A DNA stretch of 57,202 nt from NCBI GenBank assembly GCA_030429365.1, contig JAUIEW010000004.1, forward strand, positions 1-57,202. The letters are read 5' to 3'. This document shows positions 1 to 4,389 of this stretch, piece after piece. The position numbers and the translations under genes are program-made. Origin of the DNA: Phycisphaerae bacterium (GTDB lineage Bacteria; Planctomycetota; Phycisphaerae; UBA1845). Every line of letters starts with the position of its first letter. The stretch's first letter is position 1. The notes under the pieces were generated by a model, which worked only from the letters and a program-made list of their open reading frames with translations, was not told the DNA's origin and made no database searches.

Positions 1-531
1 TCCATCGGCATAGACTCATTGCATCTGGTCGATCCGGATGTTGTCGCTGTCGAAAATCTGGCTTGCCAAGGCTTCGATCAGGATAATTTGGGAAGAGCCA
101 AGGTCGAAGCAACTGCTGACTTCTGCCATCGCATCAATCCCTGCATGGAAGTCCTGACCGAAGAAAACCGATTCCGGCGCAGCGGTGCGTTCGGCAACGC
201 GATCTTCTGCTGTGTCGACAGCATCAAAACGCGCCGCTTTGTCTGGGAGAATGCGGGCGAACATGCCGAAATCTTCCTCGACGGCCGAATGACCGCCGAG
301 ACCATTCGAATTGTTACCGTCAGCGATGCGCATGGTCGCGATCATTACCCACGTACATTATTCGCACCGGACCGCGCCTACCGAGGCAACTGCACGAACA
401 AATCGACGATATTCGCCGCAAATATCGCAGCGGGATTGATGGTGTCGAACTTTAGCAAGTTCTTGAGAAGACTGCCCATCGAGCCAGACTTCTGCATGAA
501 TCTGTTAAGCAACGAGTTGTTGGTTTTTTGA
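1..531 (+). CDS. ThiF/E1-like adenylyltransferase, 5' end cut by window edge
   Basis: The reading frame is open from base 1 (SIGIDSLHLVDPDVV...), so the TTG at 19 in the ORF track is not the start and the N-terminal glycine-rich nucleotide-binding loop lies outside the window. What is visible is the second half of an E1/ThiF/MoeB fold: the strand ending LVDPDVVAVENLACQGF (typical LVDxDxVxxxNLxRQ), then GRAKVEA, the VDSIKTRR segment, the DGRM strand, and a C-terminal helix region NCTNKSTIFAANIAAGL whose Cys could be the thiolating or zinc-site residue. Such enzymes adenylate the C-terminus of a ubiquitin-like or sulfur-carrier protein. It is the first gene of a recombinase-bearing element, so it is more likely accessory cargo than thiamine or molybdopterin synthesis. 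No carrier protein, E2 or JAB peptidase is visible; they could lie upstream of the edge. Family assignment is firm, substrate unknown. Confidence 0.8.
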   Translation, partial: SIGIDSLHLVDPDVVAVENLACQGFDQDNLGRAKVEATADFCHRINPCMEVLTEENRFRRSGAFGNAIFCCVDSIKTRRFVWENAGEHAEIFLDGRMTAETIRIVTVSDAHGRDHYPRTLFAPDRAYRGNCTNKSTIFAANIAAGLMVSNFSKFLRRLPIEPDFCMNLLSNELLVF

Positions 532-583: not shown

Positions 584-772
584 ATGCAAGACTGTAATCC
601 GAAGAGTCGGCCCGATAGCCGAATTGAAAACCTGGAAACTAACCAGGCGGAGATTCGACATTCGAAATCAATTGCAACTGCACAGGCCCATTTCTTGCGC
701 CTTATTGCAGTGCGAATCGCACAACGATGGACCGCCAACCAGCGTGAGATTCCTGATTCCGATGACAAATAA
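584..772 (+). CDS. Small hypothetical protein in integrative element
   Basis: A 62-residue ORF 52 bp after the E1-like gene. It starts at ATG with an AAAGGA-like Shine-Dalgarno a few bases upstream. The protein is charged at both ends with a central amphipathic or hydrophobic helix (SIATAQAHFLRLIAVRIAQ), and the N-terminal part (RIENLETNQAEIRH) has coiled-coil spacing. I do not recognise a family. The longer overlapping ORF 528-944 in another frame lacks such a ribosome site and reads as low-quality protein, so this frame is preferred. It may be co-transcribed with the E1-like gene. Confidence 0.5.
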   Translation: MQDCNPKSRPDSRIENLETNQAEIRHSKSIATAQAHFLRLIAVRIAQRWTANQREIPDSDDK

Positions 773-940
773 AGTTGTTCTTGCCCCGCCGGTTTGCGGC
801 CAGTCTGCTGGAATTCGAATTGGAATGATGCTGCCGCCAAGCAGCAGGCGTTATTCCGCCAAATGTAAAATTTGGGGCCAATCATTCCTTCATGGTAAAA
901 CTGGCCCAGTTCACCGAGTGGCCTGTTCTTGGAGATTGAG

Positions 941-1966
941 ATGATATCGATTGAAGAAATCCTACCGAAAGCCAAATACCAAACGATTCCATCGCAATAC
1001 AAAAGCCATCCGCTAATTGAGGGGCGCTCGTATTACACTTTGCCCCTTCAACTTCTCAAAGAGCTAGTTAAACACTGCGGTGAAAACGCGTTCGACGCCG
1101 TTCTACTGAAAATGGAGCGCGATCTTGCGACGGCCCTTAGGCACAACCCGCGTCTCATCGGTTTTGACGGATATGGAGAAGTGCTCTCGCACGATTATCT
1201 GTCGAAGGATGATCTACCGCTTCCGAATCCTGACGACCAATTCTTGAATCGCATCGGCAAAACACGTGCGGGCTACGACCAATTCCTCGACGAAGCAAAA
1301 CAGCTGTTAACCTCCAGGCGAAACGAGTTACGAGGTTACATCGGGTGGCTGGTTACCAACCCGTCGTTCCGCAATGAACGGGACCAACTTTTTCAGAAGT
1401 GGGAACGCCACATCGCCGTCGTCGGTATACCCCAACATGGAACCATGTTCCTTCGCAATGCCAGTGGCAGCCATTTAGTGCTCAAAACTCGCAAGCCAAG
1501 ACGTTCACAGTTCTTTGACGATTTCACAGGATTCTATCGGCGGTGGCGTTTGCGACATCTGATGACGCATGAACTTCCAGTTCCAGTAGCGCCGAAGGTG
1601 ACTGCCCGTGGAGCGCTTGAGGGCAACGCACTTATGAACGGTGGCGGCGTTTGCGTCTGGCAGCCGGATACGGTTCCGGTGAGTTCCGGTGATCAACTCA
1701 AAGTGATGCTCGACGACATGCGCCTCAGTGGCGACAACGATCACCTTGACGAATGGATCAACAAGTTTAGCAAGACGGGGACGAACTCTCACACGATCCA
1801 TAAATTCGGCGACGTGCTCACAGTTCATTTTTACCGGAACCTGTTGCAGGAACGCCATCCAAATATGTTCAATCGCAGGAAAGGAAAAGTCATCGCGGCC
1901 TTTGGCGAATACCTTGGCCTCAGCCCGCGCCCAATCCAGAGGATCATTCGGCTGATCGACACTTAA
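941..1966 (+). CDS. Hypothetical protein of integrative element
   Basis: About 341 residues. The track start at 929 is TTG; the ATG at 941 has GGAG six bases upstream, so it is the better start. The product begins MISIEEILPKAKYQTIPS and is soluble, with no signal peptide or membrane segment. The middle is rich in aromatic and basic residues (FDDFTGFYRRWRLRHLM), and the C-terminal 60 residues are basic (MFNRRKGKVIAAFGEYLG), which would suit nucleic-acid contact, but I recognise no domain. It lies between the E1-like gene and the excisionase-recombinase pair on the same strand, so it is cargo or a maintenance gene of the element. Function unknown; the coding call rests on length, start signal and normal composition. 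Confidence 0.7.
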   Translation: MISIEEILPKAKYQTIPSQYKSHPLIEGRSYYTLPLQLLKELVKHCGENAFDAVLLKMERDLATALRHNPRLIGFDGYGEVLSHDYLSKDDLPLPNPDDQFLNRIGKTRAGYDQFLDEAKQLLTSRRNELRGYIGWLVTNPSFRNERDQLFQKWERHIAVVGIPQHGTMFLRNASGSHLVLKTRKPRRSQFFDDFTGFYRRWRLRHLMTHELPVPVAPKVTARGALEGNALMNGGGVCVWQPDTVPVSSGDQLKVMLDDMRLSGDNDHLDEWINKFSKTGTNSHTIHKFGDVLTVHFYRNLLQERHPNMFNRRKGKVIAAFGEYLGLSPRPIQRIIRLIDT

Positions 1967-2144: not shown

Positions 2145-2531
2145 GTGGAAAAAGAGCCGTATTTCAACCAAGACGAGGAACAACACACTGGCGGAGGATC
2201 CGACCCAACACGTACGGACTCGCCGTCAGATTTGCAGTTCTTATCCGCTGCTGAATTTGCTGCGATTACCGGGCTCTCAAAAAGCACGGTGCGCCGCCGA
2301 ATCCGCGACAGTGATATTCCCGTTTTCCAGCCCGGCGGCCATCGCTGCCGGGTTCTGATCCCAGTTTCTGCAATCCAAAGCGTCACGCGAAAAGACAATT
2401 CAGACGACGACGGTTGCGCACCTTGTGCTAAACGTCCGGCAGAGCCTCGACTGCCAGGACCGTCGCCGACATGGCGACGTGCAAATATCAAAGCCAAGAT
2501 TCGGGGCCAGGGAGCAAACAATGGCTCATAA
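2145..2531 (+). CDS. Excisionase-type helix-turn-helix protein
   Basis: 128 residues from a GTG start; an in-frame stop (TGA at 2133) closes the frame upstream. Residues about 30-80 (LSAAEFAAITGLSKSTVRRR, then IPVFQPGGHRCRVL) form a MerR/excisionase-like winged helix: helix-turn-helix followed by the wing that normally reads PGGxxRRxxxxxL. Such proteins act as recombination directionality factors or promote excision by bending att DNA. The C-terminal 45 residues are basic, Pro-rich and probably disordered. Its stop codon overlaps the recombinase start by 11 bp, indicating translational coupling. It could also act as a transcriptional regulator of the element. Confidence 0.75.
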   Translation: MEKEPYFNQDEEQHTGGGSDPTRTDSPSDLQFLSAAEFAAITGLSKSTVRRRIRDSDIPVFQPGGHRCRVLIPVSAIQSVTRKDNSDDDGCAPCAKRPAEPRLPGPSPTWRRANIKAKIRGQGANNGS

Positions 2532-3738
2532 ATCTTCGAATCAGACGATTTGCTGCAAATATTTTAAGTGGAAACTACGTCGCCGTAACGGCGTGTTCAT
2601 CGCCGATGGTCGAACAAACGCATCGCCGCTTGGTCGACATTCTCTTGGGACCAAAGACCGTGAAGAAGCCATGCGATTACTTTTTGAACTTGACCAGCTC
2701 AAAGCCGTCGAGTTGGACTTGGCCGATCCTGAAATCGTCGACCAGATTCAACACGATGCCGTCGAATTGGAAGAAGGTTGGAATCAGTATCGCGATTACC
2801 TCCGACGACCCGAAATCGCCGGCGGCGTGTGCGAGAAATCGGTCAAGAAGTACGCTGGAATTGTTAAGAAGTTCTTCCGGTTTGCACATAACCATGGTGT
2901 TACGAAATGGAACAATGTCACGACCCGATTCACAGAGAATTACCTTAGACATCTAAGCAACAAGAATTACGCCGACCGCACGATTTACTCCGAAGGGACA
3001 TTTATGAAACAAATCACAAAATGGATGATCGGCGAAGAAATCCTGCCCGCCGCCTGCATGATTAAGCTCAAACTCAAGAAAGTCCATGGGACAAATACAT
3101 ATTGCTGGAAGCAGCAGGAAGTGACGGCAATGATCAGACACTGCCGGCAAAGTCAGAAACTCAAATGGCTAGGCGACATTATCGTCGCATTGGCACACAC
3201 CGGTCAACGCATCAGTGAACTGGCGAACTTGCGATGGTCGGACGTGGATTTCGAGCATGGGCTCATTTGGATTACCAACGATAGAAGCAATGGAACTTCC
3301 GGACGACCAGCACGCAGAACCAAGAATCGGTGTGACCGAAGCATCCCCATTCATGGGGTTCTTCTAACGGTCTTAGGCGGTATTCCGAAATCGAACGACG
3401 GCTTTGTTTTTCGTGGACCACGGAATGGAAAACTGAAACCGGATGTGGTTCGGGTCGCCTTCATTCGTGATGTCATCAAACCACTCAAGGAGCGTTTTCC
3501 CACGGCAGAGGGTGCCATTGGTTTTGAAAACGGCCGATTGCATTCGTTCCGGCATTTTTTCTGCAGCGCTTCAGCCAACGCCGGTACACCTGAAGCTGTT
3601 GTGATGTCGTGGTTGGGGCACAAGAGCAGCGCCATGCTTCGTCATTACTACCACCTAAACAACAGCGAAGCCCAGCAGCAGATTGGGCGGATCGCGTTTA
3701 CAAGCGGGACGTTAGATCCCGAAGATGAAGACGAATGA
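2521..3738 (+). CDS. Tyrosine recombinase (site-specific integrase)
   Basis: 405 residues from ATG 2521, preceded by GGGAG; the track start at 2425 lies deep in the excisionase gene and is rejected. The N-terminal part resembles a SAM-like core-binding domain (about residues 80-175). The catalytic domain shows the expected set: R230 in HTGQRISELANLRW, H341-x-x-R344 in HSFRH, H367 in WLGHKSSAML and the nucleophile Y376 in RHYYH. All key residues are present, so it should be active. It points at the tRNA-Ser 3' end 350 bp downstream, the standard geometry for an integrase next to its attachment site. Overlap with the excisionase gene suggests one transcript for both. Confidence 0.92.
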   Translation: MAHKSSNQTICCKYFKWKLRRRNGVFIADGRTNASPLGRHSLGTKDREEAMRLLFELDQLKAVELDLADPEIVDQIQHDAVELEEGWNQYRDYLRRPEIAGGVCEKSVKKYAGIVKKFFRFAHNHGVTKWNNVTTRFTENYLRHLSNKNYADRTIYSEGTFMKQITKWMIGEEILPAACMIKLKLKKVHGTNTYCWKQQEVTAMIRHCRQSQKLKWLGDIIVALAHTGQRISELANLRWSDVDFEHGLIWITNDRSNGTSGRPARRTKNRCDRSIPIHGVLLTVLGGIPKSNDGFVFRGPRNGKLKPDVVRVAFIRDVIKPLKERFPTAEGAIGFENGRLHSFRHFFCSASANAGTPEAVVMSWLGHKSSAMLRHYYHLNNSEAQQQIGRIAFTSGTLDPEDEDE

Positions 3739-3997
3739 ACTAGGTGGTGCTGGTGGCCATTAAGAACGGCTGTCCCACAATTATCGAGACCGACCGGCAT
3801 GCGCTGGTTTGACCTTAAGAAAGAATCTGGGTGGCAATCTTGCGACGTCGCAACGGTCAAGCCGCTCAATACATTGGAGGACGCTCGAAGCGGATTGAAG
3901 ATTCGTGAAATGAAGAAGAAATAAACGGTAAACACCAGATCTAAGACAACCGATTCCTTACCGATCCTCCGCTTGAACCGGGCCGCGGGCGGCCTGT

Positions 3998-4021
3998 TTT
4001 GGCACAGTTTTTGGCACAGTT
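3998..4021. repeat. Tandem 12-bp repeat TTTGGCACAGTT x2
   Basis: Two exact adjacent copies of TTTGGCACAGTT between the recombinase stop and the tRNA-Ser gene. Position just inside the presumed att junction and the exact duplication fit arm-type binding sites for integrase or excisionase. That role is inferred from position only. The rest of the 3739-4093 gap shows no credible gene. Confidence 0.55.
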
Positions 4022-4093
4022 GGCCATGCCAATAAAATGACGCCTCGTAACATCCTGTAAACCAAGGTGTTACAAAGCGTCTAGAATAAGAAA

Positions 4094-4130
4094 CGGAGAG
4101 GGAGGGATTCGAACCCCCGCTGCAGTCACC
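4094..4130. other. Probable attachment site (attR/attL) in the 3' half of tRNA-Ser
   Basis: The T-arm and acceptor stem of tRNA-Ser (GGAGAGGGAGGGATTCGAACC on the + strand) face the recombinase gene. Tyrosine recombinases commonly use this part of a tRNA gene as their core site, leaving the tRNA intact. I found no second copy of the sequence to the left, so the other end of the element must lie beyond base 1. The exact crossover cannot be set from one end, so the limits are approximate. Confidence 0.5.
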
Positions 4131-4180
4131 CGCAGACCGCATTTCGAATGCGGCGCCTTCAGCCGCTCGGCCACCTCTCC
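4094..4180 (-). tRNA. tRNA-Ser (CGA anticodon)
   Basis: 87-nt class II tRNA on the minus strand. The acceptor stem GGAGAGG/CCTCTCC pairs perfectly, the D-arm reads TGGCCGAGCGGCTGAAGG, and the anticodon arm CCGCA-TTCGAAA-TGCGG gives anticodon CGA. It has the long variable arm of tRNA-Ser and the T-loop TTCGAAT. CCA is not encoded. It reads codon UCG. The 3' end points at the recombinase gene. Confidence 0.95.
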
Positions 4181-4389
4181 TGCACCGATCGATTTACCCC
4201 AAAACCGCCCGCCAAACGGGCAAAATCGAGGATCGATCAGACCTATTCACTTTTTCTGGCACCTGCGGATTTATCGTCCGCAGCGTGTGAAACCCTTAAT
4301 ATCACGATCGCCCAAACAAGTCCAGATCACCCGACGGCATCAGGCGTCAATTCCGAAACCGATGGCGACGCAACACGAACGGATCGCGT

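Follow-up and report, generated by a model that had tools for sequence, protein, structure and literature searches.

Complete ubiquitin-like (Ubl) cascades, comprising a modifier, an E1, an E2 and a peptidase, are known from few bacterial systems. The genes of BilABCD are ordered A-B-C-D, i.e. Ubl-E2-JAB-E1 (PMC11354881). In the Caldiarchaeum operon, the tail of the Ubl precursor is removed by an Rpn11-like JAB (PMC5654768). Iyer et al. (2006; PMC1779556) described types 6a-6e, in which JAB and E1 genes, with or without E2 and Ubl genes, are present on mobile elements. Related Planctomycetes operons (RING/treble-clef Ub operons) were reported in 2011 by Burroughs et al., according to PMC4197634, and possibly cover part of the family considered here.

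The window, by which we mean the whole stretch of DNA analysed (57,202 nucleotides from a Phycisphaerae bacterium), is contig C404 of its genome (G000) and starts at base 1 of that contig; an E1 gene at its left edge is therefore cut by the assembly. The explanation we favour, and consider likely, is that this fragment belongs to the E1 of a complete Ubl-E2/Zn-JAB-E1 conjugation cassette carried on a mobile island integrated at a tRNA-Ser gene. The sequence supports the gene set, its order, the catalytic residues and the mobile context and, through a structure model, the fold of the Ubl; the reaction steps and the biological purpose are inferred.

The E1 gene and the reassembled cassette

The match of the 5'-open reading frame to the ThiF family exceeds the curated Pfam cut-off, and the fragment corresponds to residues 43-218 of a 218-residue E1. 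A full-length homologue (218 residues, 98% identical) with all of the adenylation motifs is present in a sister genome, G001 (locus L024, on G001:C8). In an alignment of 53-54 cellular E1s, the G29xG31xxG34, D53, N61, K76, D115 and C173 positions are conserved at ≥96%, with Lys76, Asp115 and Cys173 each present in 53/53. The predicted catalytic cysteine, in a GxCT motif, lies at about residue 131 of the window fragment (Cys173 in full-length numbering). Among the viral E1s, 45 rows have Cys at this position and one has a gap, and the other motifs are kept in nearly all rows. The equivalent of MoeB Arg73 is not conserved, and a profile search against the PDB returned ThiF, UBA5 and BubCD.

When the JAB end of L024 was used as a DNA query, a 4,336 bp contig of the window's own genome, C104 (L033), was found at 99% identity. 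This contig carries the Ubl, E2-like and JAB genes (Table 1) and terminates 33 codons into E1, with comparison to L024 indicating that 27 bp are missing before window base 1. The adjacency of C104 and C404 is an inference that rests on the match to L024, not on a read crossing the gap. Joined, minus the 27-bp gap, the two contigs give the order Ubl - E2/Cys-rich Zn - JAB - E1 - p62 - p345 - excisionase - tyrosine integrase - tRNA-Ser(CGA). A second copy in the same genome, on contig C4, has the same three genes ahead of an E1 that is 79% identical at the DNA level. At the far left end of C104 (positions 2-289), upstream of the cassette, a transposase-like fragment was identified by eye.

Table 1. 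Positions of the cassette and island features on the two contigs.
Feature	Contig	Position	Strand	Evidence and occurrence
Ubl, cassette gene 1	C104	2228-2452		
E2-like gene, cassette gene 2	C104	about 2501-3619		
JAB, cassette gene 3	C104	about 3555-4250		
E1-like (ThiF-fold) Ubl-activating enzyme, 3' 176 codons	C404 (window)	1..531	+	5'-open; PF00899 E=1.2e-13
p62, small protein, unknown function	C404 (window)	584..772	+	97% in L024; profile matches in L064, L066
p345, island protein, unknown function	C404 (window)	929..1966 (in-frame ATG 941)	+	96% in L024, 34% in L026, also L098
Excisionase-like HTH protein (Xis)	C404 (window)	2145..2531	+	HTH_17 2e-6; TIGR01764 excise 1e-4, below cut-off
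Tyrosine-recombinase integrase	C404 (window)	2521..3738	+	PF00589 2e-21; XerA-type NF040815 8e-23, below cut-off
tRNA-Ser(CGA), presumed attachment site	C404 (window)	4094..4180	-	ARAGORN; 3' end toward integrase

The Ubl, JAB and E2 proteins

The Ubl has about 72 residues, with a single domain in all 49 cellular Ubls aligned, and ends in TPxKIEGA followed by a variable tail. Within that alignment Gly71 is present in 49/49 and Ala72 in 48/49 sequences, the terminus thus being Gly-Ala rather than Gly-Gly. A beta-grasp fold is predicted by the structure model (pLDDT 91), with Foldseek matches to Caldiarchaeum ubiquitin, SUMO and TtuB. Whereas the cellular copies have one domain, the phage copies L152, L155, L172 and their kin carry Ubl domains in tandem, two or three per copy.

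The likeness of both Ubl and E1 to cofactor-pathway proteins raises the possibility of a sulfur-carrier system of the ThiS/MoaD type, in which the E1 would adenylate the Ubl for sulfur transfer only. In support, the Ubl weakly resembles ThiS (E=0.012) and the E1 resembles ThiF. However, an E2-like protein and a JAB are encoded in every complete locus, thiamine or molybdopterin genes were not noticed in the flanks, the genome has a separate full-length ThiF/MoeB homologue on contig C282, and the distribution of the cassette is mobile and patchy; we regard this alternative as very unlikely. Assignment of the E1 to the thiamine/Moco ThiF-MoeB enzymes was likewise rejected: the best NCBIfam ThiF score was 60 bits compared with a cut-off of 159, and no thi or moa neighbours were noticed in the open reading frame lists.

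The JAB retains the JAMM motif (E..HxHx7SxxD), with E47 and H107 in 61/61, H109 in 59/61, and S117 and D120 in 59/59 sequences. Rpn11-like peptidases rank first in a profile search against the PDB, the best match being the Caldiarchaeum Rpn11 homologue.

With respect to the E2, the His-Pro-His and Cys residues of an HPH-x(6)-C site are present in 55/55 cellular sequences, and an HP...C site is present in all 40 viral ones. C-terminal to the active site are ten CxxC knuckles, with 20 Cys conserved at ≥96%, which resemble B-box/RING domains and are predicted to form five zinc sites. The E2 part is not covered by any model in Pfam, PADLOC or NCBIfam, nor did it match an E2 profile in Pfam or the PDB. 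The protein is collinear with yeast E2s (HPN/HPH..C) through the active site (hhalign P=0.014, probability 3%), and comparison of the full-length model with PDB folds gave nothing significant, the best E2 match having E=0.78. Although an E2 (UBC) fold is strongly suggested, it is not proven, there being no significant profile or fold statistics.

A probable mobile island at tRNA-Ser

Downstream of the E1 gene lies an integrase module. The order E1-p62-p345-xis-int is repeated in loci L024/L064 and L026/L066, and the linkage of the E1 to the island is therefore not due to chance. The p345-xis-int genes are also found in L098, beside a tRNA-Ser(GGA) gene; the same integrase module is beside tRNA-Ser(CGA) in L066, and in L064 the contig stops in matching tRNA sequence after the same module. 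The p345 protein itself had no match in Pfam, NCBIfam, PHROG or the PDB.

Genome G004, of the same genus, has a decayed remnant at tRNA-Ser(CGA) (L144; G004:C33, 2292-4769), in which a partial E2, JAB and integrase remain; none of E1, p345 and Xis is matched there. In G003 a tRNA-Ser gene is present without the cassette, as a bare site. More widely, a recombinase or TniB/TniQ gene is near 22 of 58 cellular loci. Where the sequence was scanned, no direct repeat delimiting the island's other end was detected, and neither the window's own genome nor G002 had a further exact 17-bp copy. Taken jointly with the conjugation cassette reading, it is likely that the cassette is cargo of a tRNA-Ser-integrated mobile island, with its attachment site presumed and its far end undefined.

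These results bear on an initial annotation of the window, made from the sequence alone, which had linked the E1 to a recombinase as cargo of a mobile element and had placed E2, JAB and Ubl genes just past the left edge. The first proposal held, given the Xis and tyrosine integrase beside tRNA-Ser downstream, and the second was right, since all three genes were found on C104 of the same genome. The annotation would have been refuted by upstream thi or moa genes or by a full protein lacking adenylation motifs; the upstream genes on C104 are instead those for Ubl, E2 and JAB, and about 53 cellular homologues retain the motifs. As to the proteins it had proposed looking for, a small Ubl with a C-terminal Gly was found, with Gly71 near-terminal and followed by Ala72, and a JAB peptidase with a conserved JAMM motif was found on C104; for the E2-fold, the HPH and Cys are invariant, but without a significant profile or fold match.

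Distribution in cellular genomes and phage contigs

A GTDB-wide scan with JAB patterns found 56 loci, nearly all in records titled as Planctomycetota, together with one Hydrogenedentota MAG and one other bacterium; because the patterns were built from planctomycete JABs, distant cellular relatives could have been missed. An E2 profile run over 392 genomes of the phylum gave strong matches (E<1e-50) in 14 genomes, and five weaker ones, with one genome carrying five copies. The order Ubl-E2-JAB-E1, on one strand, is found in 39/39 cellular loci with all four genes (nearly all Planctomycetota). Of 59 cellular loci, 18 have genes for both an AAA ATPase (PF00004) and p340 close to the operon. A plasmid search with the E2 gave no match.

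Scans of IMG/VR returned the same order and strand in 49/49 fetched viral loci with all four genes; these represent 38 distinct contigs after removal of repeat fetches, among which three pairs are near-identical. Many of the operon-bearing viral contigs are 50-190 kb long and uncultivated (L120, L121 and L156-L196 carry the complete operon). A terminase was detected in 12 of the 26 viral records tested, some matches being weak, and L120 has genes for a phage-type DNA polymerase, exonuclease VIII and SSB near the operon. On phage contig L169, p340 matches DUF3150. One record, L122, resembles a planctomycete island adjoining phage genes more than a clean virus. Phage-isolate searches with the E2 and with a viral JAB gave no match; isolate phages of Flavobacterium, Bacteroides (crAss-like) and Xanthomonas (L222, L223 and L224) have only distant, stand-alone E1/ThiF proteins (28-33% identity), and Ubl, E2 and JAB genes were absent nearby in these three loci as scanned.

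The viral copies raise the alternative that the cassette serves mainly phages, whether in superinfection exclusion, counter-defence or host takeover, and has been acquired by planctomycete islands. Consistent with this are the full operon on the 38 viral contigs, the interleaving of viral and planctomycete rows in the E1 tree, which requires 7 changes, and the presence of an AAA ATPase downstream of the operon, in some cases a few kb away, on seven phage contigs, five of which also encode p340. However, the tree is unrooted, was made by a quick method and has many weak forks, the direction of transfer is unresolved, and the viral contigs are without known hosts or isolates; on balance, we lean slightly against this alternative. 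In the same tree the window clusters with L064, L023, L065 and L066.

Proposed mechanism and function

Returning to the conjugation cassette reading, the JAB metallopeptidase would trim the short variable Ubl tail at the conserved Gly71-Ala72, after which the E1 would adenylate the exposed C terminus and load the Ubl onto Cys173. The Ubl would then be transferred to the E2, at the Cys within its HPH-x(6)-C motif, and the E2, together with its fused ten-knuckle Zn region, a putative built-in E3 or target-recognition module, would attach it to a target; the JAB may also undo the Ubl-target bond. The location of AAA and p340 genes near the operon suggests, without showing, that an AAA enzyme handles the conjugates, and in many loci the AAA ATPase and its DUF3150/p340 partner may act in this way.

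The mobility of the cassette and its carriage by phages are the basis on which we infer an anti-phage or inter-element role. The likely use, in the absence of phage-resistance data, is in phage/mobile-element conflict, as defence in islands and as exclusion or counter-defence on phages. A bolder reading, which in our view could as readily prove wrong as right, is that the cassette represents a distinct, uncharacterised class of bacterial Ubl system, common to planctomycete islands and large tailed phages, in which an E2 with its own E3-like Zn region, linked to AAA/DUF3150 proteins, tags targets in conflict. If this is true, the carriage of an E2-Zn fusion by both phages and islands would extend ubiquitin-style tagging to phage genomes, and the compact four-gene set would be suited to reconstitution and would bear on the origin of E2-E3 pairs.

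Comparison with known systems

Membership in PRTRC, type II CBASS, Bil and Bub was rejected on the features tested. The score for PRTRC (TIGR03736, PRTRC_ThiF) was 23.9 bits compared with a cut-off of 144.75. Type II CBASS, which has a Cap2 E1-E2 fusion and a CD-NTase, was excluded on the grounds that the E1 and E2 are separate genes here, although a CD-NTase was not specifically searched for. Of the two proteins, only the E1 is matched by the E1-E2 models of PADLOC, and beyond the generic E1 and JAB models no known defence family in PADLOC matches the gene set. Elsewhere in the same genome, contig C444 (L123) has a 599-residue frame encoding a Cap2-like E1-E2 fusion (PF14461 and PF00899), which may belong to a type II CBASS system.

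Of the described systems, BilABCD shares with the cassette the Ubl, E2, JAB and E1 genes in one operon and in the same order and, as Bil (bacterial ISG15-like) is anti-phage, the cassette could be viewed as a divergent branch of it. Against this, BilA has two Ub-like domains compared with the single domain and GA end of the cellular Ubls; the CEHH motif of the Bil E2 (C, E+6, H+8, H+13) is not met, the conserved His lying upstream in HPH (from the Cys onward, the L066 E2 reads C-LGDAAGPLQTAAR); the large Zn region has no counterpart described for Bil in the literature searched; and no Bil-named PDB or NCBIfam entry was matched by the cassette proteins. On these sequence features we consider this alternative unlikely.

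The similarity to Bub (bacterial ubiquitination-like) operons lies in the E1, the profile of which matches residues 183-295 of the 458-residue Citrobacter BubCD (PDB 9ea5, E=1.8e-12), which we take to be a JAB-E1 fusion; in contrast, JAB and E1 are separate genes in all complete loci here, and no Bub Ubl or E2 was matched. The Caldiarchaeum ubiquitin operon likewise has a tailed Ubl precursor, an Rpn11-like JAB, an E1, an E2 and a Zn-finger component. However, its Zn component is a separate small RING, whereas the Zn region here is fused to the E2; the E1 of about 218 residues leaves no space for a C-terminal Ubl-fold domain, and the modifier ends in GA rather than GG.

The suggestion in the initial annotation that the E1 belongs to a conjugation or defence set held with respect to the conjugation genes, defence being plausible only, without phage-resistance data. 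Its description of the system as undescribed held in part, being true of the variant and not of the principle, because operons combining JAB, E1, E2 and Ubl genes had already been described (Iyer et al., 2006; Bil; Bub). An E2-Zn fusion in this arrangement of four genes is not described for any of the types 6a-6e, and the cassette does not show those defining features of Bil, Bub, PRTRC, type II CBASS and the archaeal operon that were tested; it is therefore best regarded as a variant of the Iyer/Bil/Bub-like conjugation systems.
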